IMG/VR virus record: IMGVR_UViG_3300009604_002234
Span: 1-28,588 of that record
DNA from: a virus
Length of the DNA stretch: 28,588 nt
Direction: 5' to 3' (one strand)
The notes under the pieces were generated by a model. It worked only from the letters and a program-made list of their open reading frames with translations. It had not been told where the DNA came from and made no database searches. Position numbers and translations under genes: made by a program. Shown here piece by piece: positions 159 through 27,611 of this stretch; position 1 is the stretch's first letter, and the number at the start of each line of letters is the position of its first letter.

Positions 159-3100
159 TTAACGGTTTTCAGCTTTCCACTTGTTTCTTGCGTTACGTGA
201 AGCCTTGGCTCTTGCCAGCGTCCCGGTGCTGGAATGGTACTCTACTGCCCTCCGCAACTTGGACTTACTTCCCAGAAGATTACCCAAGTAATCTATGTTT
301 GTATTTCTCAATACGTACTCGTATGCCTCCAGGTCACTCATGCGTAACTGCTTCATAAATGCATTCTGCTGTTCGGTCTGATAGTCTGGGTCGTAGTAGT
401 CTTTACCCTCGCCTTCGTTGCGTCCTATATTGAAGAATTCATTGAGGGCCTTTTCCCCTGGAGTATCACCCTCTCTATACCCCATGCCCGGCCCGTGCTC
501 ATGCATACGGGCTCCCATCTTTTGCTTGCTCATCTCACCTATCTCTTCGTAATATTTATTTACCGCAGCCTTCTCTGACACTCTATTGCCTAGACTAAGG
601 TCTGCCTCAATTTGTTGTAGTTCTGCTTCAAACCTAGATTCTATGTCATCAATAGTCCCGCCCAGTCCGTACCTTTCACGCTTTTCCTTGGCTGCCTTGG
701 TACGTTCAAGCTGTTCCAGGTGCGCCATTTGCCATGGTTCTGCGTTCCTGTATTCAGGCCATCCCAATGCCCTTGCCTCGTCATTAGCGGCGTCAGTGAA
801 GGTTTCTCCAGAGGTTCTTCCCCCTAAGAATTCCGTGCCTACAGCGGTAGCCATTTCCTTACTGAGTATCGGGACCTCTTCCCCCCACATCTCATAGGCT
901 GCCTGTATGGGGAACGGCAGTACTTTAGATTGAGCATAATCTAAAAGCTCTTTGTTAGGCTTCATTCCTTTCCATTCTTCTCCAAAGAATGAGGACATGG
1001 GAACGCCCATAGGGGTGTCCCCTCCCAGATAGTCCATAAGGGAGGACGCCACGGGGGGCTGCCTCATCCTTAACCAGTCATAGATAAATTTACCTGTAAC
1101 AGTGTTCTTCCAGTTATCAGTATCGAGCGGTGCAGCCATGAGTGTCATCATGGATCTCAGTCCACCGCCTATTCCATACCATCTTCCGCCAATCTCGTAA
1201 GAAAGGAATCTCTTACCATTTAAGGGATTGAGCCCCCGTAATAATTCCTCATCACTCTTACCCATGGCCTTACCTATGCCCCAGTATGTTAATGCCCCGC
1301 CTATCAGGGTCTGTCCCAATGCCCTTCTCGCTTCTACACCAACCCTACCACCGGCAAGAGTATTTGAGAATACACCAAACAGGGAACGTGTATACCTCGG
1401 AGAGAAGAACACCCATGCGTTCTCAATCGATCTCTGCGTGGCTGATACACCTAACGCCCTTGAACTGGTAACGCCCAGCATCGTGTCAGTGTAACGCGCA
1501 AGCCTCATTAATTCCTCTTCCAACGCATTCCCTGAAGCCTTCCTTGACGCAGTCTGGGCAAATCCGTCAAACATATACGCCCTGCCCATTCCTATAAAGG
1601 TTTCAAATGACCTCTGGAAAGGCCTTATAGGTGCGCCTACCCTGCTCTGTAAAAGACCGGATTCAAAGAATTCGGAGGTTAGACCCAGGTCTATACCATA
1701 CTTAGATGCAAGCTGTGATTCAGGGCTATACTGTCTCCAGTGCATGTAGAAGTCAGGGTCAATCATTGCCCTGAATGCCCCGTGGACAGCCTTGGACCAC
1801 CTTATAGGGGACCTGAAGAACAATATCGAGCCCTGTATAGTGAACTGTCCAAGATCAAATGCGCCAGCCTGTAACGTCCTCAATAAAGAAGATACACTTC
1901 CGGCGTACTTATTTAATTTCTCAAAATTAGTTAGGTCTGCCCTCTGTAACTTGGGGAGGAATGCCTGCAACTCTTTCCAGTCTTCCTTCCTGAATATGGC
2001 AGGATTCCTCAGTTGGAAGTAGTCATCCGGCATCACTTCCCCTTGCTCAGCCAGCTTCCTCTTTCTAATGACATCCCAGTCTCCCGGGCCAGGCCTGCGT
2101 GCCAGACGGCGGTCTATACCTGAAGGACCCAACGGCCCTGCCTCACCTTTAACCCTCTTGGTTATCCTACTTACAAATACCTCGTCACGTATCATTTTGT
2201 GTATCGCATGTACGTATAACTCAACCTGCTCCAACGGGTCTTTCTTATAGTTAACTCCTCCCTTGACCCCATCTTCCTGCAGATCATAGAATCTCTTTTT
2301 GAGTATGCCTGCCTTGGCCCCTACCTTTCCACGCGCGGCTGTATACTTGCCCTTGGTCTCTATCCACCTGGGCCAGTAGCGCATACCCTGTCCCATTTCA
2401 AGCTTGGGGAATTCTTTGCCTGTGCTCTTCTCATATAGCCTTACCATGTCGTCAAGTAATTCATGCCCTGCTTCTATCCATTCCCTCTGTTCCCGTGTAA
2501 GGAAAGGCGCATACTTATTCATGTCTTGAGCCACGTCACCGAACTCGACCCTTCTCTTATCAAGGAGCGTGATCTTGCCGTCATCGCCTATTACCTTTTT
2601 AAAGGGGCTGCGTGCGAGTGCGGATAGTCTCTGGGAGGCCTGAGCCCCCTGGAACTCTTCAAGGAGCATATATCCCAGTCCTTCCATCCTGATCGGGGAC
2701 CGTTCAATTATTGCTGATGGATTGGAAGAATTGATCAGCGTTCTCAAGAATGCCCCTAATCCTACTGTTCTACCTTTAATGGTTGTGTCAGGCAGTGCGG
2801 CTAATTGATTGGAAAGCCTGCGTAACAAGTCTCTTGCATTATTGCCACGAACATTTGCGTCGAGAAGCTTATTCACGAAATTAGAACCCATTTCAGAGCG
2901 TATCCCATCAGATGAGTCCATTGAATCTATAATGCCCCCTCTTCTTCCGCCATATCCTCCGCCCCACTGGCCTCTTTCCCGGAATTCATTCAGGATATTC
3001 CTCCCTGTCCTATTCAGGGCAGTACCTGTATCTCCCAGTATATTACTGAGGCGGGGCATGCGGATAGGTAAGGGTCGCTGCATCCCTGTGCGTGCTCCAC

Positions 3101-6100
3101 GGGATTGTATACCAGCTCTTTCTGCCTGCAGGGCGCCACCAGGGACAGCAGCCCGTGCGGTGGTGATGGGGGCTTCTCTAGTAGTTTGCCCTGGTCTTTT
3201 TACTAGTGCCTCTACAGGAATGTCTCCTGCGTGAATATATCCACCAGATGCTTCAGCCACATTAGATAGATTTAACTTAGAGGCATCTACAATAAATGGA
3301 TCATTGGGGTTTGCCGTTCTCTCTAACCATACTACCTTTTGTTCAGCACCTTCTTTGAAGAACTGCCTAGATAATTCCACTCCTTCAGGGGACTTAGGCA
3401 TTAGGTAAGCCCGTATACCACCTGATTCGGTAGGTTGTATTGGTCCTAGAGTGGGGTCAGTAGGTGGTGGCCTATGACTCCAATACCGTTTTATGGGACG
3501 ACTAGATACAAGCAGGGATTCAAGTTCTGGCCTAATTAATAAACTATCTTCTATATTTACATCTTTAGGTTGAAGAACTTCATTAGCATCCCATCTTTGT
3601 ACAGTCTTAGGAAAAACCGTGTCGGGAACGACTGCCCCAGCAGCCCGTGTGACGGGAACGACTGCCCCAGCAGCCCGTGCGGTGGGTACGACTGCCTCTT
3701 TAGCGGATGCGGCTGTGGTAGGCCTTACCTCCCCAAACTGTTCAATGGCCTTGCGATTCCAAACCACACCTTGGGGTGTGTCTCCCATCATGTGACCTTG
3801 GACTAGCGCACCATCAAACCCTTGTTCTTTCAAGGCAGCGACTGCATCTGCGCGACGAGCAGAAGGCACGCCTGAGATATCAGCAAACCTACCCCGCAAT
3901 ACTATTGGAACCTCAGCAGGAGGCCTCGCCTGCTCTATGCCTATTCGGGATAGAAAATCAGGCTTCCAGAAAGAAACATTGAAAGGCTGGTCGGCTATTT
4001 GCACCACCCCACCCGTGAAATCAGGCCGTTCCTTAAACTCCCTTATATACCGAAGCCCATACTCCTCCTCGCTCTCTGTTATATATCGAGTGCGACGGAG
4101 TTGGCGAATCTCTTGCTCTAAGGATTCGCTAAGGCTGGTACGTTGAGCTTGGCTAAGTTCTCGTAAGAAGTTCCACTTAGCAGTAGCGCGGCCCGTCCAT
4201 AACTGAGGAGCATTTGAAAAATAAATACCGGCTATACCCAAGTCCCCTACCAGTCCGGGATCGCGTGTTTGACTGATATCTCCGCCTACTCGTAATATCT
4301 CTTCAAGGCGAGAAGGGTCACTTGTGACATGGATCGACCGTAGTTGCCCGCCTTCTACGACCGCTACGTTGCCAATCCTCTGTGTCTCAGGTGTAGCTAG
4401 AATCTCAACTGCGCCTTCTGGCAGAGCGCCAGCCCGTGCGGTGGTGATAGGGGCTTCGGCAACCTGCCTAGCGGCTATGCCTCCTGCTGCTTCCCTCTGG
4501 TAGGTACGGGTCGCCTTGGGCATCGTGGCTGACATATCTACCAGTGGCTGTAAGAATCCCCTGGTAATTATGCCGTGTATACCGTTACCGAATATAGTAT
4601 CGGTAAGTTCGTTAGTTGTCTTAGGAACACGGTAACTATCAGGAAGCCCCATGTAGATTCTCTGCATCTCGGGTGTCATGTCTATGACAATGCCGTATTC
4701 AAAACCCCTGCCTTGAGGGTCAGGTAGTATAATACGCTTCTTGCCGCTTACCGTAAGTGTCGGGCCTACACGGCCTGCCTGCCTTGCGTTATGGCTTCCC
4801 CGAAACATAGCCCCTGTAGTTATTATGGGTTCATTGGCAGATAGTTTGCCTTTATTAATAGAGGCTATTATCCTTGCTTTTTCTTCATTCCACCTAGGTA
4901 CATCTTTTACCAGCTTACCTGCGCCTGCAGATTTCGCTGCTTCTATTTGGTATCTCAGGGAAGTATACCAGTCTGTGCCTCCTATCCTTTCCGGTAATCC
5001 AGGAAGCTCGGGGTACTTCCAAAACCCGAACTCATCCTTCTTACCGCGTACTGCCCTGAGGATCAACCTTTTTCTATCCTGTGAACCCCCGTAGTCAGCC
5101 GCGTTATAGACTCCCATATCCCACTTGTAGCCTAGCTCATCTAGCGTATCTGTGATTATGTTGAGCAGGGCAGCCCTTTTTTCAGGCGTTTCAGACCATA
5201 CGCCTTTAACCCTATCAACATATCCGCCATACGCAGGTACATTTTCCAATGAGAATGTAGCAGGCATACCCGTGCGTAAATTCCTCGCAACTGACATGGC
5301 AATAGCACGGTCATTTTCATTCACTATCTTTTCAATATTGTGTAGAGAGCTATTAGGATGAGCCCTTGAAAATCTCTTACATTCAGGGGAAGCATGATAG
5401 TGGGTTGCCCCGGAATTTTCAAATCCGAATGCTTGCCTCATATCGGCAATATCCCTGGGTTCAATGTTTGTTTTCCAGATCTTATTAAATAACGCGACTA
5501 TCTCTGGGCTATACTCGTCTACATGTACAAGGTCATAGCTACCAATATGTAGCGCACCCAGGAATGTGCCGCCGCCTGTCATTGAATCTGCCACCTTGGC
5601 AACAGGCTCAGCAATAAATATCTTATGTAACCTATCCAGAACTTCAGGATCATCAACATTGAATCCCTGTGCTCCCATGAACTCTTTGAAGTATTTAATA
5701 GAGCCTGTCTCTAGCTCTTTAGGCCCTATGGTGTCCAATATAGCAGGGATATAATCCTCACGGGACGCGTTCATAACCCGCTGTTTCAACTCTTCCGGCG
5801 TAGGTTTTGGATACCTTTTCTTGAACCACTCTGAATTTTTGCCGTATAGCTCGTCTATACGTTTTCTCGCAGCTACCGAGGCAGCTGATATTTCAGGACT
5901 GTCAGGGCGTACTAGCCTTCCCCAGTCTGCTTCCTGTCGGGTTACTGCCTTTTCTGCTGCATCCCTGGCTGCCTGTGTAGGGCGTACTATATATTTCTGC
6001 ATACCTGTCCCGGTGAGGAAGGAAGACTGGGGATGCTCAGTTAAGTGTCCAAGTCCAAGATTTGACAGTCTCCTGGCCTTATCGGCAGCCTGTGCTTTTT

Positions 6101-7145
6101 TAATAGCGCTGGTTGTCCTCAATGCCTTGCTAGCTGTACCCCAGCCTGCGGTTAGCGCCAAGTCTAAAGGAAGAGTCCATAGTGCCTGTTGCCACCACGG
6201 CATCTCCCGGTACTGTTCTTGTGCTCTCTCAGTCGTTTCGCCGTAATCGAGGAAGCTTCCGCTGCCAGGGGTAACAAAGTCTTTAAATGCCTGCGCGGTT
6301 GCCCTCGATTCTTCGCTTATACCCCCTCTTTTTCCCATGCCTGCCCCAACGCCTTCGGCAACTAGTTTGGCAGCCCCACCAAGTGTTTCAAATAATTCTA
6401 TAGCTTCTACAAATGGCTTCTTTGCTGCCGCCTTTACCTTTAGCGGTTCTGATACCGGCAACTTGGATACCCTTAGTGCGTTAGGAAGCCTATCTAATAA
6501 CTCCTGGTTATATCTCTCCCAGTCCTTCTCGGTAGGATTCTTGGGTAGCGGGGTAAAGTCCCTGGGAAGATTGATCTTATTACTTATGAATATATTTTCT
6601 ATTTCATACTTTGCTATTTGCGCAGGAGAAGCAGTCTCTCGCCACCGGGTATATTCATCTTGCAGAGCCTTTTCTTTTTGCTCACGGAGATTGTACTCCT
6701 CCAATTTTTTCTGCTCAGCCATCCTCTTAGACCATAGATGTTCTGGACCCGGTATTTCCCCGGGCTTAGGGTACAGTTCTTGGGCAGATTTATATATGGG
6801 CAGAGGCGGCCCACCCGGCGTTAACGCATCTGTCAGCGCCTGTTCCTGACCTGGGTACAAGGGTGCAATTGGAGGTGGTGGTGCAGCTGGAGGCGGTGCT
6901 GTTAACGCAGCCTCCAACCCCTGTTCTTGACCCCAAGCAGCGCCTGAAACAGAGAGAGGTTTGATCATACCCCTAGCTATAGCAGCATTCATGGCATTAA
7001 ACTGAGCAGGCATAGACTGAGTTGGCGTAGGCGGGCCTGATTCCTCAGGCTTAGAGAGGTAAACCCCCTTGCCTATCGGTTTTATCCGGCGCACGAACTT
7101 CATAAATGGATTAAAATCTAATCCACTACCTGAGCCTAGTACCAT
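159..7145 (-). CDS. Giant polyvalent virion-type protein with embedded C5-cytosine methyltransferase and ART-like modules
   Basis: 2,328 residues, starting at ATG 7145 behind an AGGAT site. Residues 1-500 are Pro-rich then helical; GQEQxLxxALT occurs twice (about 73-109). Residues about 515-870 carry C5-methyltransferase motifs: motif I near 520-529, catalytic-type Cys589 in ASPEC, ENVP at 634-637, QDRKR at 689-693, GPTLT at 794-798 and GNG at 853-855. Residues about 936-1141 resemble a phage ADP-ribosyltransferase fold (IHVTSD, GIYFSN, GFDGALVQ). Residues about 1181-1317 form a second toxin-like block ending GYIHAGDIPVEAL. The C-terminal part (about 1360-2328) is helix-rich, with hydrophobic stretches near 1765-1777 and 1940-1957, like large polyvalent-protein-associated regions. 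Such fusions are known in phages and conjugative elements as proteins that enter the cell with the DNA. Activity of each module is inferred, not shown. Confidence 0.85.
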   Translation of the reverse strand: MVLGSGSGLDFNPFMKFVRRIKPIGKGVYLSKPEESGPPTPTQSMPAQFNAMNAAIARGMIKPLSVSGAAWGQEQGLEAALTAPPPAAPPPPIAPLYPGQEQALTDALTPGGPPLPIYKSAQELYPKPGEIPGPEHLWSKRMAEQKKLEEYNLREQKEKALQDEYTRWRETASPAQIAKYEIENIFISNKINLPRDFTPLPKNPTEKDWERYNQELLDRLPNALRVSKLPVSEPLKVKAAAKKPFVEAIELFETLGGAAKLVAEGVGAGMGKRGGISEESRATAQAFKDFVTPGSGSFLDYGETTERAQEQYREMPWWQQALWTLPLDLALTAGWGTASKALRTTSAIKKAQAADKARRLSNLGLGHLTEHPQSSFLTGTGMQKYIVRPTQAARDAAEKAVTRQEADWGRLVRPDSPEISAASVAARKRIDELYGKNSEWFKKRYPKPTPEELKQRVMNASREDYIPAILDTIGPKELETGSIKYFKEFMGAQGFNVDDPEVLDRLHKIFIAEPVAKVADSMTGGGTFLGALHIGSYDLVHVDEYSPEIVALFNKIWKTNIEPRDIADMRQAFGFENSGATHYHASPECKRFSRAHPNSSLHNIEKIVNENDRAIAMSVARNLRTGMPATFSLENVPAYGGYVDRVKGVWSETPEKRAALLNIITDTLDELGYKWDMGVYNAADYGGSQDRKRLILRAVRGKKDEFGFWKYPELPGLPERIGGTDWYTSLRYQIEAAKSAGAGKLVKDVPRWNEEKARIIASINKGKLSANEPIITTGAMFRGSHNARQAGRVGPTLTVSGKKRIILPDPQGRGFEYGIVIDMTPEMQRIYMGLPDSYRVPKTTNELTDTIFGNGIHGIITRGFLQPLVDMSATMPKATRTYQREAAGGIAARQVAEAPITTARAGALPEGAVEILATPETQRIGNVAVVEGGQLRSIHVTSDPSRLEEILRVGGDISQTRDPGLVGDLGIAGIYFSNAPQLWTGRATAKWNFLRELSQAQRTSLSESLEQEIRQLRRTRYITESEEEYGLRYIREFKERPDFTGGVVQIADQPFNVSFWKPDFLSRIGIEQARPPAEVPIVLRGRFADISGVPSARRADAVAALKEQGFDGALVQGHMMGDTPQGVVWNRKAIEQFGEVRPTTAASAKEAVVPTARAAGAVVPVTRAAGAVVPDTVFPKTVQRWDANEVLQPKDVNIEDSLLIRPELESLLVSSRPIKRYWSHRPPPTDPTLGPIQPTESGGIRAYLMPKSPEGVELSRQFFKEGAEQKVVWLERTANPNDPFIVDASKLNLSNVAEASGGYIHAGDIPVEALVKRPGQTTREAPITTARAAVPGGALQAERAGIQSRGARTGMQRPLPIRMPRLSNILGDTGTALNRTGRNILNEFRERGQWGGGYGGRRGGIIDSMDSSDGIRSEMGSNFVNKLLDANVRGNNARDLLRRLSNQLAALPDTTIKGRTVGLGAFLRTLINSSNPSAIIERSPIRMEGLGYMLLEEFQGAQASQRLSALARSPFKKVIGDDGKITLLDKRRVEFGDVAQDMNKYAPFLTREQREWIEAGHELLDDMVRLYEKSTGKEFPKLEMGQGMRYWPRWIETKGKYTAARGKVGAKAGILKKRFYDLQEDGVKGGVNYKKDPLEQVELYVHAIHKMIRDEVFVSRITKRVKGEAGPLGPSGIDRRLARRPGPGDWDVIRKRKLAEQGEVMPDDYFQLRNPAIFRKEDWKELQAFLPKLQRADLTNFEKLNKYAGSVSSLLRTLQAGAFDLGQFTIQGSILFFRSPIRWSKAVHGAFRAMIDPDFYMHWRQYSPESQLASKYGIDLGLTSEFFESGLLQSRVGAPIRPFQRSFETFIGMGRAYMFDGFAQTASRKASGNALEEELMRLARYTDTMLGVTSSRALGVSATQRSIENAWVFFSPRYTRSLFGVFSNTLAGGRVGVEARRALGQTLIGGALTYWGIGKAMGKSDEELLRGLNPLNGKRFLSYEIGGRWYGIGGGLRSMMTLMAAPLDTDNWKNTVTGKFIYDWLRMRQPPVASSLMDYLGGDTPMGVPMSSFFGEEWKGMKPNKELLDYAQSKVLPFPIQAAYEMWGEEVPILSKEMATAVGTEFLGGRTSGETFTDAANDEARALGWPEYRNAEPWQMAHLEQLERTKAAKEKRERYGLGGTIDDIESRFEAELQQIEADLSLGNRVSEKAAVNKYYEEIGEMSKQKMGARMHEHGPGMGYREGDTPGEKALNEFFNIGRNEGEGKDYYDPDYQTEQQNAFMKQLRMSDLEAYEYVLRNTNIDYLGNLLGSKSKLRRAVEYHSSTGTLARAKASRNARNKWKAENR
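3135..3176. repeat. Dispersed linker repeat, copy A
   Basis: Encodes EAPITTARAAVPGG at residues 1324-1337, just after the second toxin-like block. About 27 bases here match the repeat at 4413-4457 with one mismatch in the stretch I compared by eye. Confidence 0.75.
3624..3696. repeat. 30-bp tandem repeat encoding RAAGAVVP-type linker
   Basis: Two 30-bp units (3624-3653 and 3654-3683) differ at about three bases, followed by 13 bases of a third. Read on the minus strand they give TARAAGAVVP-VTRAAGAVVP. The unit sits exactly between the two ART-like blocks of the giant protein and shares its core with the linkers at 3135-3176 and 4413-4457. Confidence 0.85.
4413..4457. repeat. Dispersed linker repeat, copy B
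   Basis: Encodes EAPITTARAGALPEG at residues 897-911, between the methyltransferase domain and the first ART-like block. It matches the copy at 3135-3176 and shares the core cagcccgtgcggtgg with the tandem repeat at 3624-3696. Confidence 0.75.
4536..5603 (-). other. C5-cytosine methyltransferase domain inside the giant protein
   Basis: This stretch encodes roughly residues 515-870. All main motifs appear in canonical order: I (DSMTGGGTFLG), II-like acidic HVDEYSP, IV (SPEC, Cys589), VI (ENVP), VIII (QDRKRLIL), IX (RVGPTLT) and X (GNGIHG). The residue before the catalytic Cys is Glu rather than the usual Pro; similar SPxC variants occur in phage enzymes from general knowledge. The region between VIII and IX (about 700-790) would be the target-recognition domain. 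Nothing in the motifs suggests it is dead. Confidence 0.85.
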
Positions 7146-11700: not shown

Positions 11701-13041
11701 CTACCACCTTTTAACGGAAATCTTATCCCGTCCCTGTACATAGCCGTATCCGTAGTTGTCCACTATACCATAGATCAGCGCTTTTACACCGTGGTTATTC
11801 TTATCTTCCGGTGAAGATCCCACTATATTCCCATCCCGGTCAACTTTCCACCTGTATGCCCTTGTCTGACCGTCAAACGGGTTAGGGGCTGCCCCAAATT
11901 CCGAAAGAACCCCGTCACACCGGGGATTTATCTTTAATTTTGCTTCTCTTGAGAGAGGGTCGGGCTTTAAAAAGCTCTTTAATCTCTCGGTTCCGTCGTT
12001 AATCATAACTTTTTGAGAATTTAAGTACAATCCCGTCTCCTTTAACCAGATCTCAACCGGTGCAGGCATTGCCTGGTGCTGATTACCTGCTATATCTATC
12101 ACCCCGTACTGCACATCCTGCCACCACGGGCGGTTTTTACAGATGTCAATGATCTCTTCTGTTACCAATCCTCTTTCGTAGACTTCATCTATGACATGGA
12201 TAACATCATCGTGGATTTGAATAGCCATAACAGCGTATGCCCCTGCGTATCCGGGGTCCATCCAGAGGTGTACGGGGTCACCCACCGACCACTTCACTTC
12301 TTCTACGTGGAGATTGGGCCTGAATTCACTAAACACCAGTCCTTCGGGAGGTGACGGGATACCTTCAATGCGTTCCATAAAGAAATCGTCACTGGAATCT
12401 CTTTTAAGTCTCTGTATCTCGGGGTCCTGTATCCCATCGGGGTACAGGTGGGTATTCGTATAGCTCGGAAGTGAGAAACTCTGTTCCTCGTCCGTGGGTA
12501 CCGACCATGCGGTATGCATCTGCGGGTACCATCCGAGTGAGCCTTCAAAGGTTCCTGACAAAAACAGCCACCCTCTCTTGGGGGCGCATCTTCCTCTCAT
12601 CCTGTAGAAGGTTTCTATATCCAGCTGGGATGCTTCGCACCCGATAATACCGTCAGGGGCTCTCATTGCAAGTGTACGCGGATCTTTAGCGGATTTTGTC
12701 TCTATACGTGTCCCGTCTGCGAGTATAATCCTGCCGGGGTCAACCCTTTTAGATGCTTCCTTGAGTATTCCCAGCGCGGAGAAGTCATCTATCAGGTACT
12801 CGAACTCTGCCCTTGTGCGTTCATAGTCAGCAGCGACAAGCCAGTAGAGTCCCTCGTCGTTGATCTCCATCATGCGTGCAAGCAGGTACTTGCTTGCCAT
12901 CATGGATTTACCTGCCTGTTCACCCCCTGCAACAAGGATGAATCTTTTACGGCAATCTACTATCGGCATCTGTGCCGGGGTAGGGTTAAATCCCACCTTA
13001 TCGTAGAGATAACTTACTACATCAGTTACTGTCTGAGTCAT
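11701..13041 (-). CDS. terL: Terminase large subunit
   Basis: 446 residues, the ATP-driven motor and nuclease that cuts concatemers and packages DNA through the portal. Walker A is GGEQAGKS (39-46). A Walker B-type region is GIIGCEA with Glu136. A coupling motif LSGT lies at 161-164. The nuclease half shows acidic residues at the expected spacing: Asp262 in MDPGY, Asp316 in VIDIAG and Asp413 in EDKNNHG. Length is normal for the family. The ATG lies inside the end of terS (20-base overlap), and its stop overlaps the ribosome site of the portal gene, so the three are translationally coupled. Confidence 0.95.
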   Translation of the reverse strand: MTQTVTDVVSYLYDKVGFNPTPAQMPIVDCRKRFILVAGGEQAGKSMMASKYLLARMMEINDEGLYWLVAADYERTRAEFEYLIDDFSALGILKEASKRVDPGRIILADGTRIETKSAKDPRTLAMRAPDGIIGCEASQLDIETFYRMRGRCAPKRGWLFLSGTFEGSLGWYPQMHTAWSVPTDEEQSFSLPSYTNTHLYPDGIQDPEIQRLKRDSSDDFFMERIEGIPSPPEGLVFSEFRPNLHVEEVKWSVGDPVHLWMDPGYAGAYAVMAIQIHDDVIHVIDEVYERGLVTEEIIDICKNRPWWQDVQYGVIDIAGNQHQAMPAPVEIWLKETGLYLNSQKVMINDGTERLKSFLKPDPLSREAKLKINPRCDGVLSEFGAAPNPFDGQTRAYRWKVDRDGNIVGSSPEDKNNHGVKALIYGIVDNYGYGYVQGRDKISVKRW

Positions 13042-18766: not shown

Positions 18767-19138
18767 ATGACTCTAACTATAACGGAATTAAGACAGGCTC
18801 ACCCAAGTTACTTCAGCCGTGTGAATATAAAACTATTCGGTGATAAAGAATACCGTATCTTGCACAGCAAGGATGGTAACCCGTACCTAGTACGACTCAC
18901 CCAACAGTGGTCGGATATGTTCGGACACCCTCCTGTAGAGTGTTATCGAGTCAACCCGATAGGTTCAAATCTGAAAATTGAGGAGGTGATTAAGGAACAA
19001 TTTGAAACACTGCAAGACGTGAAGGATTGGTTAAAATATGAGAAGGAGGTGAGCGATGGAAGAATCAAAGATACCCGAGTCACTGATCAACAGGATAGTA
19101 ATGCCCGATCCTGTACAAATAGGCAAGGTGATCACTAA
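18767..19138 (+). CDS. Unknown 123-residue early protein
   Basis: I chose ATG 18767 because the hairpin and a purine-rich ribosome site (AGAAAGAGAGAAG) lie just upstream; the open frame extends back to 18671 through the previous gene. Starts MTLTITELRQAHPSYFSR, with a small strand-rich region (KLFGDKEYRILHSKDGNPYLVRL) and a helix near 75-95. Its last 83 bases overlap the start of the gene at 19056 in another frame, so the C-terminal 27 residues (rich in Asp, Arg, Gln) may be under mixed constraint. No family is recognised. Confidence 0.65.
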   Translation: MTLTITELRQAHPSYFSRVNIKLFGDKEYRILHSKDGNPYLVRLTQQWSDMFGHPPVECYRVNPIGSNLKIEEVIKEQFETLQDVKDWLKYEKEVSDGRIKDTRVTDQQDSNARSCTNRQGDH

Positions 19139-19895
19139 CAACGGGTGCTATACCAACTTCGGACACACTCAGCACACAACTAACCGGCTGAACAGACGTG
19201 CGTTGAGTAACGCAGACGAGAGTGCTGTTATCGTAAAGGAGAAATCCAGTAACTCAAAGACAGGGGAGATGAACGTCACCTATGCCCCACAGATAACATG
19301 CCCGACCTCGTGTCCACTGTACCCTGAGATACTAGGTGACGAGCATGACATTGAAATCAGGATGCATATCCAAATAGAGTACTCGAGGATAGAGAGGCGT
19401 AGGATATACGAGCTACCTGCGGATCGTAACCTGAGAGTACATGTGGTGGGTGATTGTAGCAACACTATATCGGCAGGGCTGATCGGTGATGCCATGGTTG
19501 ACTACGAAGCACGGTCGCCCAACGGTTCCCTGGCATACACCTACACACATGGATGGGATGGACCATACAACGTACCGGAATCAGCTTGGAATGGAGCAAG
19601 GGTACTTGCAAGCTGTGAGTCAGCCGAGCAGATACTACGAGCTCGTTCACTAGGCTATGCATGTGAATGGACATACAAGAACCATGAGTCACGCAAGATA
19701 CACGAGCGCCAAGGCATCCAGGTACTACCCTGCCCTAACAACTTCAACAAGGATGTGACGTGCAACATGTGCATGAAGTGTGCCGACCTCGGGTTACTCA
19801 AGTCACGTAACATGGTGATAGGATTATCCACCCATGGAGCGCACAAGAAAGCTGGAGCTGCCATTGAACGCAAGCTTAGAGAAGGAGGTGCATAA
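19056..19895 (+). CDS. Cysteine-rich phage protein resembling gp88/DUF7227-type families
   Basis: 279 residues from ATG 19056, with AAGGAGGT 5 bases upstream. Features seen: TCPTSCPLYPE (81-91), LRVHVVGDC (126-134), YTYTHGW (161-167), ARVLASCES (181-189), CPN (226-228), CNMCMKC (236-242) and STHGAHKK (258-265). The order of CP..C, HVxGD, THxW, a Cys triplet and HG near the end resembles a phage family I recall as gp88-like/DUF7227. That name comes from memory and has not been searched. The conserved cysteines suggest zinc or an iron-sulfur site. No biochemical role is known to me. Confidence 0.75.
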   Translation: MEESKIPESLINRIVMPDPVQIGKVITNNGCYTNFGHTQHTTNRLNRRALSNADESAVIVKEKSSNSKTGEMNVTYAPQITCPTSCPLYPEILGDEHDIEIRMHIQIEYSRIERRRIYELPADRNLRVHVVGDCSNTISAGLIGDAMVDYEARSPNGSLAYTYTHGWDGPYNVPESAWNGARVLASCESAEQILRARSLGYACEWTYKNHESRKIHERQGIQVLPCPNNFNKDVTCNMCMKCADLGLLKSRNMVIGLSTHGAHKKAGAAIERKLREGGA

Positions 19896-20713: not shown

Positions 20714-20726
20714 GCAGAAAGGAGAA

Positions 20727-22040
20727 ATGAATGTGGCTATACGTACCTTATCTATCTGCACAGGATACGGAGGAATCGAGCTCGGACTCTCCGCAGTTGG
20801 AGACTTTGAGCCGGTCTGCTACGTGGAAAACGAAATCACGGCAGCTACGATTCTGGCAAAACGCATGGAAGAAGGATCCTTCCCTAAGGCTCCTATCTGG
20901 AGTGACCTACGCACCTTCGACGGTAGGCCATGGCGTGGCAGAGTGGATCTCCTCACTGGAGGTTTCCCATGCCAGCCCTTCAGTGTCGCAGGAGTCAGGA
21001 GAGGAGTCGACGACCCAAGAAACATGTACCCCGAGGTCGAGAGGCTCGCAGGAGAACTCGGCTACCCAACTCTCTTTCTTGAAAATGTTCCAGGAATCCT
21101 CCAGTACTACTACGAAACAATCAGACCCGGACTTCAAGGTATGGGTTACACCGTTACGGAAGGACTCTTCACGGCGGCTGAAACTGGCGCACCACACAAG
21201 AGGCAGCGACTATTCATCCTGGCCTACACCAGACACTCAGAATTACAGGGATGGGTCGAAGGCACGGAAGGATGCGAAGGGAGCACACTCGGTGAGCCTG
21301 CACCACAAGGTAGCGAACTGGCCCACCCCAGTGGCCTCGGACGAGCACGACAGATCGAAGACGGAGAACTGGGAAGGGAAGAACGACCTACCCTCAGTGA
21401 CCAAGGCCTGGTCAACACCCACGGCACGGGACCACAAGGGTGCGAACACGGGTTACCACATATCCCTACCGAGGCAGGCGACCAATTGGCCTACCCCAAG
21501 AGCGTCGATGAAGTCACCTCCGACCCAATCGGAGGTAGAGCAGGGCAACCCAAAGAGGAGACTGGAAGTGACGGTAGCCACCTGGCCGACCCCGAACGCA
21601 TCGGAACACAAGTCCTCGTCGAGGGTGAGGGAGAACAATCAGGACAACCTCGGCTCGGCAGCGAGGAACTGGCCCACACCGACAGCGACAGAGAGGTCAG
21701 GCATCAACCCGGACACGGGCAAGGGGGAGGGCTTGAGCCTGTCAGCGAAGAACTGGCCCACACCGGCAGCGAGGGACTACAAGGGGATGGACCCACCGGG
21801 ATGCACGGTTCCGCACAAGCCCCCTTCACTCTACCTCTCTATCCCCCAAGCCCCGACGACTACGAAGGATGGACACACCTGCTCGACGTCCTGCCGCAGG
21901 TTGAACCCACTTTTTGCAGAGATGCTTATGGGTCTACCCCTGGGGTGGACGGACGCCTCAGAGCCACTGGCAACGGAGTTGTTCCAGCTGTGGCAGCATT
22001 CGCTTGGAGATACCTTACTGAGGAAAGGGTCGTGATCTGA
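20727..22040 (+). CDS. C5-cytosine DNA methyltransferase (frame 1 of a double-coded locus)
   Basis: 437 residues. It transfers methyl groups to cytosine C5. Motif I CTGYGGIELGL (11-21), motif IV GGFPCQPFS with Cys82, ENVP (119-122), QRLFIL (160-165) and GNGVVPAVAA (415-424) are all present. Residues about 166-370, where the target-recognition domain should lie, are instead Gly/Glu-rich with seven L-(A/V)-(H/Y/D/N)-(P/T) units, and I find no clear motif IX. A second 434-codon ORF runs in the +1 frame almost end to end. The ATG is only 2 bases after AGGAG plus AA, a tight spacing. The enzyme may protect phage DNA from restriction. Confidence 0.9.
   Translation: MNVAIRTLSICTGYGGIELGLSAVGDFEPVCYVENEITAATILAKRMEEGSFPKAPIWSDLRTFDGRPWRGRVDLLTGGFPCQPFSVAGVRRGVDDPRNMYPEVERLAGELGYPTLFLENVPGILQYYYETIRPGLQGMGYTVTEGLFTAAETGAPHKRQRLFILAYTRHSELQGWVEGTEGCEGSTLGEPAPQGSELAHPSGLGRARQIEDGELGREERPTLSDQGLVNTHGTGPQGCEHGLPHIPTEAGDQLAYPKSVDEVTSDPIGGRAGQPKEETGSDGSHLADPERIGTQVLVEGEGEQSGQPRLGSEELAHTDSDREVRHQPGHGQGGGLEPVSEELAHTGSEGLQGDGPTGMHGSAQAPFTLPLYPPSPDDYEGWTHLLDVLPQVEPTFCRDAYGSTPGVDGRLRATGNGVVPAVAAFAWRYLTEERVVI
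20731..22035 (+). CDS. Overlapping WPTP-repeat protein in the +1 frame of the methyltransferase gene
   Basis: 434 residues from an ATG 4 bases after the methyltransferase start, with AGGAG 6 bases upstream, a better spacing than for frame 1. Features: Trp-rich N-terminal third (TWKTKSRQLRFWQNAWKK at 31-48, AEWISSL, WVTPLRK near 138); seven W(P/S)TP units at 164, 197, 227, 253, 285, 314 and 342, several followed by xARD or xASD; and a C-terminal LNPLFAEMLMGLPLGWT at 391-407. From memory, phage proteins with WPTPTARD repeats and an LNPxFxExLMGxPxGWT end are widespread, and some are found with C5 methyltransferases. A random overlap would not give these motifs. Function unknown. Confidence 0.7.
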   Translation: MWLYVPYLSAQDTEESSSDSPQLETLSRSATWKTKSRQLRFWQNAWKKDPSLRLLSGVTYAPSTVGHGVAEWISSLEVSHASPSVSQESGEESTTQETCTPRSRGSQENSATQLSFLKMFQESSSTTTKQSDPDFKVWVTPLRKDSSRRLKLAHHTRGSDYSSWPTPDTQNYRDGSKARKDAKGAHSVSLHHKVANWPTPVASDEHDRSKTENWEGKNDLPSVTKAWSTPTARDHKGANTGYHISLPRQATNWPTPRASMKSPPTQSEVEQGNPKRRLEVTVATWPTPNASEHKSSSRVRENNQDNLGSAARNWPTPTATERSGINPDTGKGEGLSLSAKNWPTPAARDYKGMDPPGCTVPHKPPSLYLSIPQAPTTTKDGHTCSTSCRRLNPLFAEMLMGLPLGWTDASEPLATELFQLWQHSLGDTLLRKGS

Positions 22041-22847: not shown

Positions 22848-23656
22848 TCGTAACAATCAAGGTTGACTCGATGAGGCTCAACAAGCAGGACAACTGGTGC
22901 CTTCAGGCTTTCGTGCCTGGCATAACCAACCAGTACCCGATACCGTTGAACCTTACAACAGCACAGGGTGAGTACGTGCGTGAGATCAGTGAGAAGACAG
23001 AGTACGAGAACGTCAAGGTGCAGAGGGGTAACCTCAAGGAAGGCAAGGACGGAACCTACGCTAACCATTACTACTGGGACGTGGCTGTCTTTGAGGGTAT
23101 AGAGAACGAGATGGTAGCCGGTAAGCCACCTGCCTCAGGCACAGGCACAGGATGGATTCCTACAGGACATGGGAATATAGCAACCAAGACAGTGCCTGTC
23201 AGGACCGATACCCCGGAAGTACCTGTGCATTTCTCTGAGATGCTCGACACAACAGGCAGGTCAATCATCAGGCAGGTAGCATTCAAGGCTGCTGTAGAAC
23301 GCACCAACGGGTCTCCAGAGAACGTGCGTGACCTCACTGACCAGTACGAGAGGATACTCCTGAACCTACCATTGGATGGTTATATGCCAGATGAGGAACT
23401 GCAAGATGAGGAGCCTGCATTCGATTACCCCGAGCCACCCAAGAGGGTCACCATGGATGAGTTCAATGACTACTGCATGAAGGCAGGATGGGGTGATGAA
23501 ACTATCCGCGGATGGGTAGGAGACCCAATGGAATGGCTGAAGGAAGACGGTAAGCGCACACTACGCAAGCTACTGAAGTTCTGCAGGGATCAGGCAATAG
23601 AAGAGGGGCTGACGCCACCTGAGGACTTCAGGGCAGGGGGTAGTGATGGCAATTAA
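22832..23656 (+). CDS. Possible ssDNA-binding or recombination protein
   Basis: 274 residues from ATG 22832 (AGAGAGG upstream); an open frame reaches back to 22742 but through other small ORFs. Residues 1-85 are strand-rich (TTLVVTIKVDSMRLNKQDNW, then YYWDVAVFEG), compatible with an OB-fold. A linker is followed by SIIRQVAFKAAVERT (about 150-164), a helix type found in phage DNA-binding proteins, then an acidic stretch and a C-terminal helical domain. It directly precedes a PD-(D/E)xK nuclease with an overlap of 11 bases, as in phage recombination or replication modules. Function is inferred from shape and neighbours. Confidence 0.5.
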   Translation: METTLVVTIKVDSMRLNKQDNWCLQAFVPGITNQYPIPLNLTTAQGEYVREISEKTEYENVKVQRGNLKEGKDGTYANHYYWDVAVFEGIENEMVAGKPPASGTGTGWIPTGHGNIATKTVPVRTDTPEVPVHFSEMLDTTGRSIIRQVAFKAAVERTNGSPENVRDLTDQYERILLNLPLDGYMPDEELQDEEPAFDYPEPPKRVTMDEFNDYCMKAGWGDETIRGWVGDPMEWLKEDGKRTLRKLLKFCRDQAIEEGLTPPEDFRAGGSDGN

Positions 23657-24560
23657 AATCAACAAGGTGGAACTGTATCCTTTCCTGTTAGATTGGAAAG
23701 ATGGGGAACGCCCCCACTTGCTACAGTTAACAGGGCCGAGGGGCAGCGTCAGGGCTTATCAGAAACCAGGTACTGACTATCCCTTGTGGTCGGTCACTTC
23801 CATGTTGGATAAGACCATAGATAAACCGGGGCTGATGAACTGGGCGAACAAGGTGGGGCGCGAAGCTGTTAAGAATAAGCTGGCGTCCCACATAGGAGAT
23901 GAGCTCACCACTGAGATCATAGATGATGCCGTGTTCGCAGCCAAGGTAGCGCCCTACAAGGAGAAGACCAAGGCAGGTGACATAGGAACCAGGGCGCATG
24001 ACCTGCTCGCACAGTACATCAATTCCAACATAGCCAATGACTCCACTGACATTATAGTGCCGGTGGAGCTGGCTACTATATGGGAAAGCTTCAAGCAGTG
24101 GGAGAGTGACAACAACATAGACCGGTACCTCAAGACGGAGTTCGCTGTGTACAGTGAGTCCTTCCGCTATGCGGGATCTGTTGATGCCCTTGCGTACAAC
24201 GAGAAGGAACAGAAGTACATACTGTTGGATTGGAAAACCAGTAAGGGCCTCTACCCGGCAAGCGCAATGCAGGTAGCAGCCTACGCTAACGCAGTATCAG
24301 TACCGCTATCTGTGCAACAACAGGTACCCGTGTATGAATGGAGCACCTGGGACAGGATAGAACCGTGGGTTATACGGTTGGGTAAGGAGAACGCAGAGTT
24401 TGAAGCGAGGCAGGTAACAGACCCACAGCTGGCGCTGGATGGGTTCCTGAATGCCATGGAGATGTGGTATGCACTCGGGCTGCCTGGCTTGACGGACAAT
24501 GCGAAAATAGAATTGGAAGAATACTTTAAAATGCCTGATGGTTTGCCATCAGTATGGTAG
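23646..24560 (+). CDS. PD-(D/E)xK family nuclease (RecB/Cas4-like exonuclease)
   Basis: 304 residues from ATG 23646 (a GTG one codon earlier is possible). The nuclease core is clear: TRAH with His118, Glu165 in KTEFAV, Asp180 in GSVD, LDWKTSK with Asp195 and Lys197, and QVAAYANA with Gln209 and Tyr213. This is the order of RecB-type nucleases that resect DNA ends. A helical N-terminal part (SVTSMLDKTIDKPGLMNWAN) is typical of phage members. It follows the possible ssDNA-binding protein and precedes the helicase. I see no missing catalytic residue. Confidence 0.85.
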   Translation: MAIKINKVELYPFLLDWKDGERPHLLQLTGPRGSVRAYQKPGTDYPLWSVTSMLDKTIDKPGLMNWANKVGREAVKNKLASHIGDELTTEIIDDAVFAAKVAPYKEKTKAGDIGTRAHDLLAQYINSNIANDSTDIIVPVELATIWESFKQWESDNNIDRYLKTEFAVYSESFRYAGSVDALAYNEKEQKYILLDWKTSKGLYPASAMQVAAYANAVSVPLSVQQQVPVYEWSTWDRIEPWVIRLGKENAEFEARQVTDPQLALDGFLNAMEMWYALGLPGLTDNAKIELEEYFKMPDGLPSVW

Positions 24561-24573
24561 AGAGGAGAAACAA

Positions 24574-24840
24574 ATGCCATGTACCCCGAGTTATTGCGAC
24601 CTACATGACTTCGCTGTAGCAGCCCCATGGTGCGCCATGGCGTGGGCTGGCAGGGAGCGTGATACCCAGCACTACCCGACCATGGATGACGTGCGTAGGG
24701 AGATCGCTAACGCAATGGAAGACATGCCGGAAGAGAAGCCCGTTAAACAGAAGGGGGCATACCATCGGAAGGATAGCCCCAAGGAACCAACTGTTCAGTG
24801 GCGAGAGCCTGACAAGCCGTTCCGGGGGATAAAGATATGA
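24574..24840 (+). CDS. 88-residue protein between nuclease and helicase
   Basis: ATG 24574 behind GAGGAG; the open frame from 24538 only adds codons inside the nuclease gene. Starts MPCTPSYCDLHDFAVAAPWC, has several Cys and Trp in the first 30 residues, then an acidic helix (TMDDVRREIANAMEDMPEEK) and a basic, Pro-rich tail. The stop overlaps the helicase start (ATGA). No family is recognised; coupling to the helicase suggests a replication partner. Confidence 0.65.
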   Translation: MPCTPSYCDLHDFAVAAPWCAMAWAGRERDTQHYPTMDDVRREIANAMEDMPEEKPVKQKGAYHRKDSPKEPTVQWREPDKPFRGIKI

Positions 24841-26135
24841 GGGAAGAGCATACATTCCACCTGCACAGGTACATATATGACGAGTACGGGGTAACCCTCA
24901 AGGTAGACAGGATGGACGAGGATAAGGGGGCGGTGAAGGCTTATATAGAAGTCACTGCCCACCCGGATAAGTTTCCCGGCATGGAAGGGTCCCACATAAC
25001 AATGGGCCAGCAAATCCTGTCGTCCATACAGGGCAAGAAGAGACTTGCCGATGCGCTGTCCGAGGACTTACCCCTGACCCACTGGAGAGCTATAGTGGAA
25101 CAGGTATGCACCAAGACCATTAAGAAGTTCTGGGAAGGTGCTCCTGTCGTAACCATAGGCAAGCAGCCCAAGAAGACAGAGGCACCCTACCTCCTGTACC
25201 CAGTGGTACGTCAGGATGCACCCTGTATTATCTTCGGGCCGGGTGGTATAGGTAAGAGCTACATATCCCTGTACTTCAGCATGTTGGTACAGCACAACCT
25301 GTCAGTGGGATCTTTCATACCCAAGCAGGCTAACGTGCTGTACCTTGACTACGAGTCAGGAGAGGACGACCTCAACGATAGACTGGCCGCACTGTCCAAG
25401 GGCATGGGGCTGGACGTGGAGCTCAAGTACAGGTACTGCCACCAGTCCCTGGCTAATGACGTGGAGACACTCGGAACCATCATAGCCGAGGATAACATAG
25501 GGCTGTTGATAGTAGACGCCAAGGGCGCAGCTGTAGGTGGCTGGATTAACGAGTCGAGACAGACAATGAGCATGTACAACGCGCTGAGGTCACTGAACGT
25601 CACCTCGATCATCATAGACCATGTGAGCAAGGAGAATCAGGACGCTCCCATAGGCAGTATATATAACTTCAATGAATCCAGAAATATCTGGAAGCTGCGT
25701 AAGACTGAATCCAATGACCCCGGCACCCTGATACTGGGGCTGTCTAACGAGAAGTCCAACTCGGGCAGGAAACACCCCAACATGGCAATGAAGTTCGTGT
25801 TCAAGGACGATGAGTACGGGAACGTGGATACCGTGTGGGTATCAGAGACCGAGGTAGAGGAACATCCTGATCTCATGCAGGACGAGCCCACCCACAGGAG
25901 GATACAGCACCTGCTCAGGGGCAACGTGGATATGAGTACGGGATTGTCTATGCCCATGTCACCTGACGATATAGCCCAGTCACTGGGTATCAAGAAGAGT
26001 ACAGTCCAGTCACGCCTGAGTGACGGTGCGTACTCGGGTAAGCCGGGATGGTGGGCAAGGATAGGCAAAGGACAGTTCGTATACATACCTGAGGCCAATA
26101 TACCAGACACAAGTGAGGAGATTGAACCATGGTAG
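24837..26135 (+). CDS. RepA-type hexameric helicase (AAA/RecA-like ATPase)
   Basis: 432 residues. Walker A FGPGGIGKSY (133-142) and Walker B IGLLIVD (221-227) are clear, with LYLDYESGEDD (168-178) matching the Walker A-prime acidic motif and SIIIDHVSK (257-265) the next conserved strand. This is the RepA/AAA_25 plan for plasmid and phage replicative helicases. The C-terminus adds a helix-turn-helix (PDDIAQSLGIKKSTVQSRLS, 376-395), probably for DNA or regulator contact. It overlaps genes on both sides by 4-7 bases. It is the main replication protein in the window. Confidence 0.85.
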   Translation: MREEHTFHLHRYIYDEYGVTLKVDRMDEDKGAVKAYIEVTAHPDKFPGMEGSHITMGQQILSSIQGKKRLADALSEDLPLTHWRAIVEQVCTKTIKKFWEGAPVVTIGKQPKKTEAPYLLYPVVRQDAPCIIFGPGGIGKSYISLYFSMLVQHNLSVGSFIPKQANVLYLDYESGEDDLNDRLAALSKGMGLDVELKYRYCHQSLANDVETLGTIIAEDNIGLLIVDAKGAAVGGWINESRQTMSMYNALRSLNVTSIIIDHVSKENQDAPIGSIYNFNESRNIWKLRKTESNDPGTLILGLSNEKSNSGRKHPNMAMKFVFKDDEYGNVDTVWVSETEVEEHPDLMQDEPTHRRIQHLLRGNVDMSTGLSMPMSPDDIAQSLGIKKSTVQSRLSDGAYSGKPGWWARIGKGQFVYIPEANIPDTSEEIEPW

Positions 26136-26218: not shown

Positions 26219-27252
26219 AGTTTATTGATATCAATACAGCAACGAAGTGGTTATCGGGGCTTTGGTTCTGGAAGCCCAAGAAGAAGAAAAGGCGTTACGA
26301 CCCAGTCAAGCGTCAGCGCCGCAAAGCGCTACGTACATCATTGGATACCCTGGACGAGATAGCTGGGTATGTTCTTAAAAACGAGTTCCGTCCAGACCGG
26401 TCGTACCCCAAAGACATGAATGGGTACAACAGGGTTCACCCAATGTCGTTCAACCATGCCGAGCCTATGGTACTCGTAGAAGACCTCGCAGCACTACGTG
26501 GTGAATTTGCAGAGAAGGCGTACATACCAAACTGGCACGATGATGCCTGGCGTCTTAACGAGGAGTTCTGGAAGCCGCGTATTGATTCGCGCTTCGTGGC
26601 TAACCATACTGGCTACTATAAAGATAGGAGGGATACCATAGTGTTGGGCAGGGTGAAGGTGCCTGATCTTCCAGCCGTGCGTGGAAAAATCGTAAGGCCT
26701 ATGAAATACCTGGTTCAAGTTGACCACGCATTTGTAGAACCTTCTGGAACATGGACCAGGCGAGGGCTATACGGAAGACAGAGTATCCACGAGCGGTGGC
26801 AGGTTAACCATATAGCATTTGTTAGAGAGGGTAGTCCCATACAGTACGCACATGACGAGGATGTCGAGTCAATAGGTAACAGCTTTGCTTTATGGCGGAC
26901 AAGAGAAATGTTTTGGAGCGTCACACTACGCAAGGAAGAGGAGCCGGGGTTCCTGTTTCCTACTGACGCCATAGGAGCACGCGCTCTCTTCAAAACCCGT
27001 GACATACCTGACGGTAAGAAGAGGCGCACTGCCCTGCTACACTGGGTTGAGTCCCACTACAGGCAGATCAACCGGGTTGACCCTATCATTGAGACCCGTG
27101 TACGCAAGCACTTCAGGGGACAGCGTAGTTTTAGGTGGAATGACCTGATATGTGACATAAGGCCATCAATTCAGGAATCTATAGAGAACATGGAGGCGCG
27201 GCTTGAGCGTGAGCGCGAAGGTACCTCTAAGAGAAGGATTAGGTCAGCATGA
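26215..27252 (+). CDS. Unknown 345-residue basic protein
   Basis: Starts MKFIDINTATKWLSGLWFWK then a Lys/Arg run (KPKKKKRRYD). A central block is rich in Trp, Tyr and His (PNWHDDAWRLNEEFWKPRID, HTGYYKDRRDTIVLGRVKV). A C-terminal block HWVESHYRQINRVDPIIETR then VRKHFRGQRSF recurs, as I recall, at the ends of other phage proteins of unknown role. The tail is basic and helical. The stop overlaps the RusA start (ATGA), so a role in DNA processing is possible. Confidence 0.75.
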   Translation: MKFIDINTATKWLSGLWFWKPKKKKRRYDPVKRQRRKALRTSLDTLDEIAGYVLKNEFRPDRSYPKDMNGYNRVHPMSFNHAEPMVLVEDLAALRGEFAEKAYIPNWHDDAWRLNEEFWKPRIDSRFVANHTGYYKDRRDTIVLGRVKVPDLPAVRGKIVRPMKYLVQVDHAFVEPSGTWTRRGLYGRQSIHERWQVNHIAFVREGSPIQYAHDEDVESIGNSFALWRTREMFWSVTLRKEEEPGFLFPTDAIGARALFKTRDIPDGKKRRTALLHWVESHYRQINRVDPIIETRVRKHFRGQRSFRWNDLICDIRPSIQESIENMEARLEREREGTSKRRIRSA

Positions 27253-27611
27253 TAACCATACTCATACCGCACCTACCGCATAGTGACGTGGGTCCCAACG
27301 CACGCAAGCATCACTTTGCAAGGAACAACGCAATGCAGGGAGCCAAGGACGAGATGGTTGCAGAGCTAAGAAGCCAGGGGGGAGTACAGGATCCCCTCTG
27401 GGAAAGGGTGGAGATACAGTTCGTGTTTCACTGCAAGGACAAGAGGCGCAGGGACGTAGATAATCTCATAGCCTGCTGCAAGCCATGGATAGATGCACTC
27501 ACAGGGGAGGTTATACCGGATGACTCAGCGAACTACGTGTCCAAGGTATCCGGTGAGTTCGTAAGAGACTCGGAATCATTCACCGAGGTAACTATCAAGC
27601 AGCTTTCTTAG
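27249..27611 (+). CDS. rusA: RusA-type Holliday junction resolvase
   Basis: 120 residues, the standard length. It resolves four-way DNA junctions and branched packaging substrates. RRRDVDNLIAC (66-76) and TGEVIPDDSA (85-94) carry Asp69, Asp71 and Asp91, matching the three catalytic aspartates known for E. coli RusA (70, 72, 91). The N-terminus (MITILIPHLPHSDVGPNARK) fits the family. It is the last rightward gene and overlaps the stop of the leftward gene 27595 by 17 bases, tail to tail. No terminator is visible in the overlap. Confidence 0.9.
   Translation: MITILIPHLPHSDVGPNARKHHFARNNAMQGAKDEMVAELRSQGGVQDPLWERVEIQFVFHCKDKRRRDVDNLIACCKPWIDALTGEVIPDDSANYVSKVSGEFVRDSESFTEVTIKQLS

Follow-up and report, generated by a model that had tools for sequence, protein, structure and literature searches.

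Two-polypeptide C5-cytosine methyltransferases and a probable phage form

The polypeptides of M.EcoHK31I (YGGCCR) are 309 and 176 aa long, and the second, smaller one was reportedly found by Lee et al. in 1995 to be encoded in another frame inside the gene of the first. Motifs I-VIII and X of this enzyme lie on the large subunit, where the target-recognition domain is also predicted, and only motif IX lies on the small polypeptide (PMC3404938). In M.AquI the chain break follows motif VIII, and the second chain carries IX and X (PMC3404938). The small domain of C5 methyltransferases comprises a variable region and motif IX, and fragments of monomeric C5 enzymes can complement (PMC3404938). Out-of-frame HNH insertions of the ShiLan type are also known in phage methylases (PMC11855218).

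Literature searches of open-access sources returned no description of the overlapping phage methyltransferase family reported here. The family is represented in the window, i.e. the whole stretch of DNA analyzed, a complete virus record of 28,588 bases, by a methyltransferase frame (F1) and a second frame that overlaps it (F2). Judged from sequence, both frames of the pair are real genes, and most probably they encode a C5 methyltransferase of two subunits, as in M.EcoHK31I, in a phage version that is extreme and widespread. Compared by description rather than by sequence, F1 resembles the large subunit of M.EcoHK31I in having I-VIII and X without IX, and, as is said of M.EcoHK31I, the first gene contains the coding sequence of the second polypeptide in a different frame. 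Unlike in that system, the two products are almost equal in length (F2 434 aa, F1 437 aa) with the overlap running over essentially the whole length, F2 has as many as seven WPTP repeats, the pair is phage-borne with no restriction enzyme noticed alongside, and substitution evidence places the putative recognition region in F2 whereas it was predicted in the large subunit of M.EcoHK31I.

The arrangement of M.AquI recurs in split relatives (Obama12 gp80/gp79, L035, L042, L153 and L214) that break after VIII and carry IX and X on a second chain; in the window, by contrast, motif X is in F1 and the overlap extends over 1.3 kb, X on the second chain being found in 14 relatives. The pair also resembles single-chain actinophage methyltransferases (Martik gp71 and kin) in its catalytic domain, PTP repeats, IX-like motif and X, although theirs are all in one frame and their other frames contain stops. 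As in a ShiLan-type insertion, a phage methylase gene conceals a second protein in a different frame, but here that frame runs the length of the gene and would encode part of the enzyme rather than a homing endonuclease. An HNH insertion was considered and rejected: F2 spans the whole gene, is not an insert and matched no HNH family.

Layout of the locus

The features of the locus, with the basis for each in brackets, are as follows.

20718-20724, +, Shine-Dalgarno-like AAAGGAG upstream of the twin start ATGAATG (sequence)
20727-22040, +, F1, C5-cytosine DNA methyltransferase, 437 aa, ATG start (PF00145, phrog_363, alignment A2)
20731-22035, +, F2, +1-frame protein overlapping F1, 434 aa, ATG start (phrog_1008, E 1.9e-27)
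20731-20748, +, F2 start MWLYVP (alignment A1, start census)
20748-20789, +, F1 motif I region LSICTGYGGIELGL, AdoMet binding (alignment A2)
20958-20984, +, F1 motif IV GGFPCQPFS with the catalytic Cys (PCQ invariant in A2)
21072-21089, +, F1 motif VI LFLENV (E invariant in A2)
21186-21224, +, F1 motif VIII region GAPHKRQRLFILA (A2)
21220-21900, +, F2 repeat array of seven WPTPxAxDxKG units (repeat-codon comparison)
21246-21896, +, F1 middle, a putative spacer opposite the F2 repeats (substitution classes; 13 stops here in relative L097)
21901-21951, +, putative F2 motif IX-like LNPLFAEMLMGLPLGWT, residues 391-407 (pattern; single-chain relatives have it after the repeats and before motif X)
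21969-22007, +, F1 motif X GNGVVPAVAAFAW (A2; family F1 proteins against the single-chain profile)

The initial annotation had described a 434-codon second ORF covering the methyltransferase gene in the +1 frame, with starts 4 bases and stops 5 bases apart, and the coordinates of F1 and F2 bear this out. The AAAGGAG lies 2 nt from the F1 ATG and 6 nt from the F2 ATG. In a start census of the relatives the commonest offset was +4 or +7, and the F2 start is common to distant relatives (MWLYIP, MWLYVP), others having MSWLF or MSWLY.

F1 matches PF00145 (E 1e-30, residues 6-173 only) and phrog_363 (E 5e-48, residues 5-431). Motifs I, IV (PCQ), VI (ENV) and VIII occur in order, followed by X (GNGVVP, residues 415-420 in A2), as expected of a C5-cytosine methyltransferase; the five had been named previously, and alignment A2 shows them all. 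No motif IX was recognizable in F1, i.e. IX and target recognition were not found on the same chain as the catalytic motifs. F1 was filed as the catalytic part rather than as a complete enzyme because motif IX is absent and the middle is nearly unconstrained in the F1 frame.

F2 had no match in Pfam or NCBIfam, split-type F2s as a class not being recognized by Pfam; it matches phrog_1008 (labelled DNA methyltransferase) at the E value given above, and also phrog_27243. The seven W(P/S)TP units and the LNPLFAEMLMGLPLGWT end reported for frame 2 were both located in F2, whereas its "Trp-rich N-terminal part" proved only mildly so. The repeat units begin at 21220, 21319, 21409, 21487, 21583, 21670 and 21754, with W(P/S)TP at F2 residues 164, 197, 227, 253, 285, 314 and 342, and when the seven are compared, their codons for W, T and P differ at no position but the third base of the F2 frame, in agreement with the substitution test described below. 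The end pattern, LNPxFVExLMGxPxGWT, faces the part of F1 that immediately precedes motif X and is assigned as a putative motif IX by position, pattern, spacing and the single-chain relatives; profile alignment to canonical enzymes gave no match for it. Searches of the PDB with the F2 profile gave no relevant hit, and with the C-terminal profile found nothing. An AlphaFold model of the window F2 (46-row alignment) was mostly disordered (pLDDT 53), the C-terminal helices excepted, and this low-confidence model had no fold match. The predicted disorder may reflect an F2 that needs F1 in order to fold, or too thin an alignment.

Elsewhere the window has a phage context: a 2328-aa ORF (159-7145, -), a terminase large subunit (phrog_2; 11701-13041, -), a DUF7227 protein (19056-19895), an exonuclease (phrog_298; 23643-24560), an AAA_25 ATPase (24837-26135) and a RusA-like resolvase (27249-27611).

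Relatives and openness of the second frame

About 290 related loci were compared overall. Profile searches supplied 80 F2-recruited loci from viral contigs, 80 recruited by F1 alone and 80 F2-recruited loci in bacterial and archaeal genomes; 35 loci were kin of one single-chain mycobacteriophage enzyme, and further loci were taken from annotated phages and plasmids. With an Acinetobacter phage F2 as query, 307 phage records matched. Both frames were in the same register in 241 of the first 251 loci examined, the others being contig ends, fusions or four special cases, and each F2 for which both flanks were available has a methyltransferase next to it. The canonical enzymes sampled (Streptococcus, Brochothrix and one Salmonella phage) had no such F2.

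Synonymous codons were shuffled within F1, preserving its protein and codon usage. In 200 such shuffles of the window's F1, the longest F2 opening averaged 145 codons versus the actual 434, which none reached. Among relatives recruited with F1 only (74 loci), the F2 frame stays open along 97% of the F1 length; its longest opening averages 317 codons (155 when shuffled) and its F2-profile score 153 bits (26 when shuffled), the shuffles ignoring the relatedness of loci. A shuffled F2 scored at least as high as the real one in 0 of 223 complete loci, and low-GC loci (under 50%) gave the same result.

Stops in F2 are nearly absent over the length of F2 in these 74 loci: 3 versus 98.5 expected in the first 60 codons, 0 versus 135 from there to motif VIII and 1 versus 95 in the middle, a total of 4 versus 329 up to the end of the middle. 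The shuffled rate is reached only in the last 35 codons (86 versus 73 expected), where the stops fall mostly past the F2 end and serve as an internal negative control. The F1 middle had 0 stops in 204 loci versus 743 expected, an open F1 being the condition of that class. Two independent tests were added because the shuffles do not model relatedness.

Selection in the two frames

Isolated differences in 39 independent pairs were classed by their effect in each frame. In pairs more than 85% identical, rates per 1000 opportunities were 80 for doubly silent changes and 4.3 for doubly changing ones, with 33 for F1-silent/F2-changing and 36 for F1-changing/F2-silent; only 26 doubly silent changes were available, which makes the absolute ratios rough, but not the contrast between regions. 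Over motifs I-VIII, F1 is the strongly constrained frame, with F1-changing/F2-silent at 13 versus F1-silent/F2-changing at 42. In the middle, F1-silent/F2-changing stands at 13 versus 79 for F1-changing/F2-silent, a pattern in which F2 is evidently the frame under selection and F1 is nearly free. Both frames are constrained at the end of the locus. Constraint by frame, the comparison proposed in the initial annotation, was found in both, and 19 neighboring genes gave a single-frame pattern (65 versus 5.6).

The nearest relatives of the window are L097 and L018 (clade support 100). In L097, 13 stops interrupt F1 after motif VIII and before the C-terminal part, whereas F2 has 378 uninterrupted codons and an identity of 48%, versus 21% for the F1 middle; L181 follows the same pattern with four internal F1 stops. 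The F1 middle is open in most relatives and its sequence is nearly unconstrained. In both L097 and L181 motif X is still in F1, behind the stops, and for these loci a simple scheme of two chains would require either an additional start or decay. The F1 motif X piece of L097 (3316-3649), which follows the 13 stops, has AGGAGG and a well-spaced ATG upstream; AGAGGAGGAAAAATCATG precedes this motif X remnant and is suggested as a plausible separate start, and the piece is perhaps a third polypeptide, i.e. of a three-piece methyltransferase.

Single-chain and split relatives

Martik-like single-chain enzymes have, in one frame, motifs I-VIII, PTP repeats, LSAxFPEWMMGWPAGW and motif X, with 2 to 15 stops in the other frames. 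The F2 module also occurs without an overlap, in frame inside single-chain methyltransferases whose other frames are closed. Against a profile of single-chain C-terminal halves, F2 proteins match the repeats through IX and F1 proteins only motif X, with no overlap between the two; the window's own F2 fell below significance with this profile, its tie to the family being via alignment A1 and phrog_1008. In phrog_116, a single-chain family, the F2 and F1 of the split type match segments that lie next to each other. A model of the single-chain L296 was confident in the catalytic and IX-X parts, which match M.HhaI, DNMT2 and DNMT1 (TM about 0.5), and of low confidence in the repeat region.

Motifs IX and X could be assigned in 248 loci, the F2-recruited sets among them having been chosen by the motif IX pattern: IX was in F2 and X in F1 in 209, both were in F2 in 14 and both in F1 in 25, and the reverse was never seen. 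Within the F1-recruited set, 61 of 64 assigned loci had IX in F2 and X in F1, the remaining 3 having both in F2. Where X is in F2 (14 loci), F1 typically ends right after VIII (median 10.5 nt). A tree of catalytic domains built by a quick method gave ∼9 changes of the motif X frame, and well-supported branches force at least 5 for the split class. The mycobacteriophage genes L270, L280 and L295 have almost the same sequence around the junction after VIII, yet single-base differences at two sites make them either fused or split. These differences lie in C or G runs, and reflect either real switching between one and two chains or sequencing error. Lastly, L258 (Gordonia phage JKSyngboy) and L265 (Arthrobacter phage 1191A) have IX and X in F1 and the PTP repeats in F2 only.

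Comparison of the relatives shows F1 and F2 alike to be coding, and F2 to hold the module that single-chain relatives have between VIII and X. The initial annotation had regarded the two frames as likely real genes that occupy the same DNA, and had suggested that the frame 2 product might complete or partner the methyltransferase, a view supported by openness, substitution classes, relatives with a broken F1 and intact F2, and the non-overlapped F2 module. To that reading we add the contribution of each frame, the finding that F1 is the weaker frame in the middle, and the two-polypeptide precedent of M.EcoHK31I.

Proposed mechanism and alternatives

On these comparisons, F1 and F2 probably specify one C5-cytosine methyltransferase made as two polypeptides from overlapping frames, the two chains associating. 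F1 would supply the large catalytic domain (I-VIII plus X) as an alpha-like subunit, its middle being a linker of almost free sequence that only has to reach motif X; an F1 that is open though nearly free in the middle is expected under such a role. F2 would supply the small-domain part as a beta-like subunit, with WPTP repeats at the target-recognition position and motif IX. We infer that F2 is initiated separately, at the ATG 4 bases downstream and on the Shine-Dalgarno sequence of F1, and that the chains form a heterodimer which would recognize DNA through the repeats and methylate it, probably protecting phage DNA from host restriction. The repeats are regarded as putative recognition modules from their position. 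More speculatively, the F2 frame might encode the entire target-recognition module of a large phage C5 methyltransferase family, the F1 region being a mere spacer, with each WPTP unit (up to seven here) a separate recognition module, such that F2 would set or change one or several targets while the catalytic subunit stayed fixed; we hold this as a tentative possibility.

A single fused chain could instead arise by programmed frameshifting, with F1 read through VIII, F2 for the repeats and IX, and F1 again for X. Such a product would have the same module order as the single-chain relatives, and would suit L097 and L181, where F1 is stopped in the middle and motif X is still in F1, as well as the near-identical fused and split genes one base apart. 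However, two shifts would be required, the F1 middle is kept open in most loci, and a direct splice in window coordinates puts IX nearer X than in single-chain relatives. Furthermore, F2 is kept open from close to the F1 start onward, in a part that a product of frameshifting does not need (3 versus 98.5 and 0 versus 135 stops), and has its own ATG and the conserved MWLYVP start. Separate initiation is favored because F2 is open from the F1 start and has this conserved start of its own, and frameshifting appears unlikely.

It is also quite unlikely that F2 is a separate protein (a regulator, counter-defense or other partner) that overprints the methyltransferase gene and acts outside the enzyme. 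Its own start and weakly constrained N-terminal part would fit such a protein, but the repeat and IX module is in frame within single-chain methyltransferases, motif X goes into F2 where F1 ends after VIII, and all F2s with both flanks known adjoin a methyltransferase. That F2 is a mere shadow, open by chance from the composition bias of F1 as had been offered as an alternative, draws on the long alternate ORFs of high-GC genes and the roughly 155 codons left open by shuffles, but is contradicted by the shuffles themselves, by low-GC loci (under 50%) behaving alike, by an F2 conserved where F1 has 13 stops (L097) or ends, and by the predominance of F2-silent changes in the middle, and is highly improbable.

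Implications for annotation

Long same-strand overlaps with both frames under selection are rare and hard to prove. For the present pair, dual selection can be argued by comparing hundreds of relatives, among which naturally fused and naturally split genes serve as controls, and the origin of an overlapping pair becomes testable, the same module being found in frame, split and overlapped. The data suggest a two-subunit enzyme behind many phage 'dcm' genes, with annotation picking up only one of the halves; cloned by itself, the annotated gene would possibly give an inactive enzyme. The annotated half varies, being F2 in XFactor and Vibrio phage 1.236.O and F1 in others. In Mycobacterium phage XFactor (L003, 1643-2371) and Vibrio phage 1.236.O (L259, 1205-1903) F2 is annotated as a hypothetical protein and the F1 methyltransferase is unannotated; in Paenibacillus phage Bloom (L304) both F1 and F2 are annotated as DNA cytosine methyltransferase. 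One further locus (L006, 2208-3111) is a natural fusion with motifs I-IV in frame with the F2 protein and VI-X in another frame, and is possibly a frameshifted gene.
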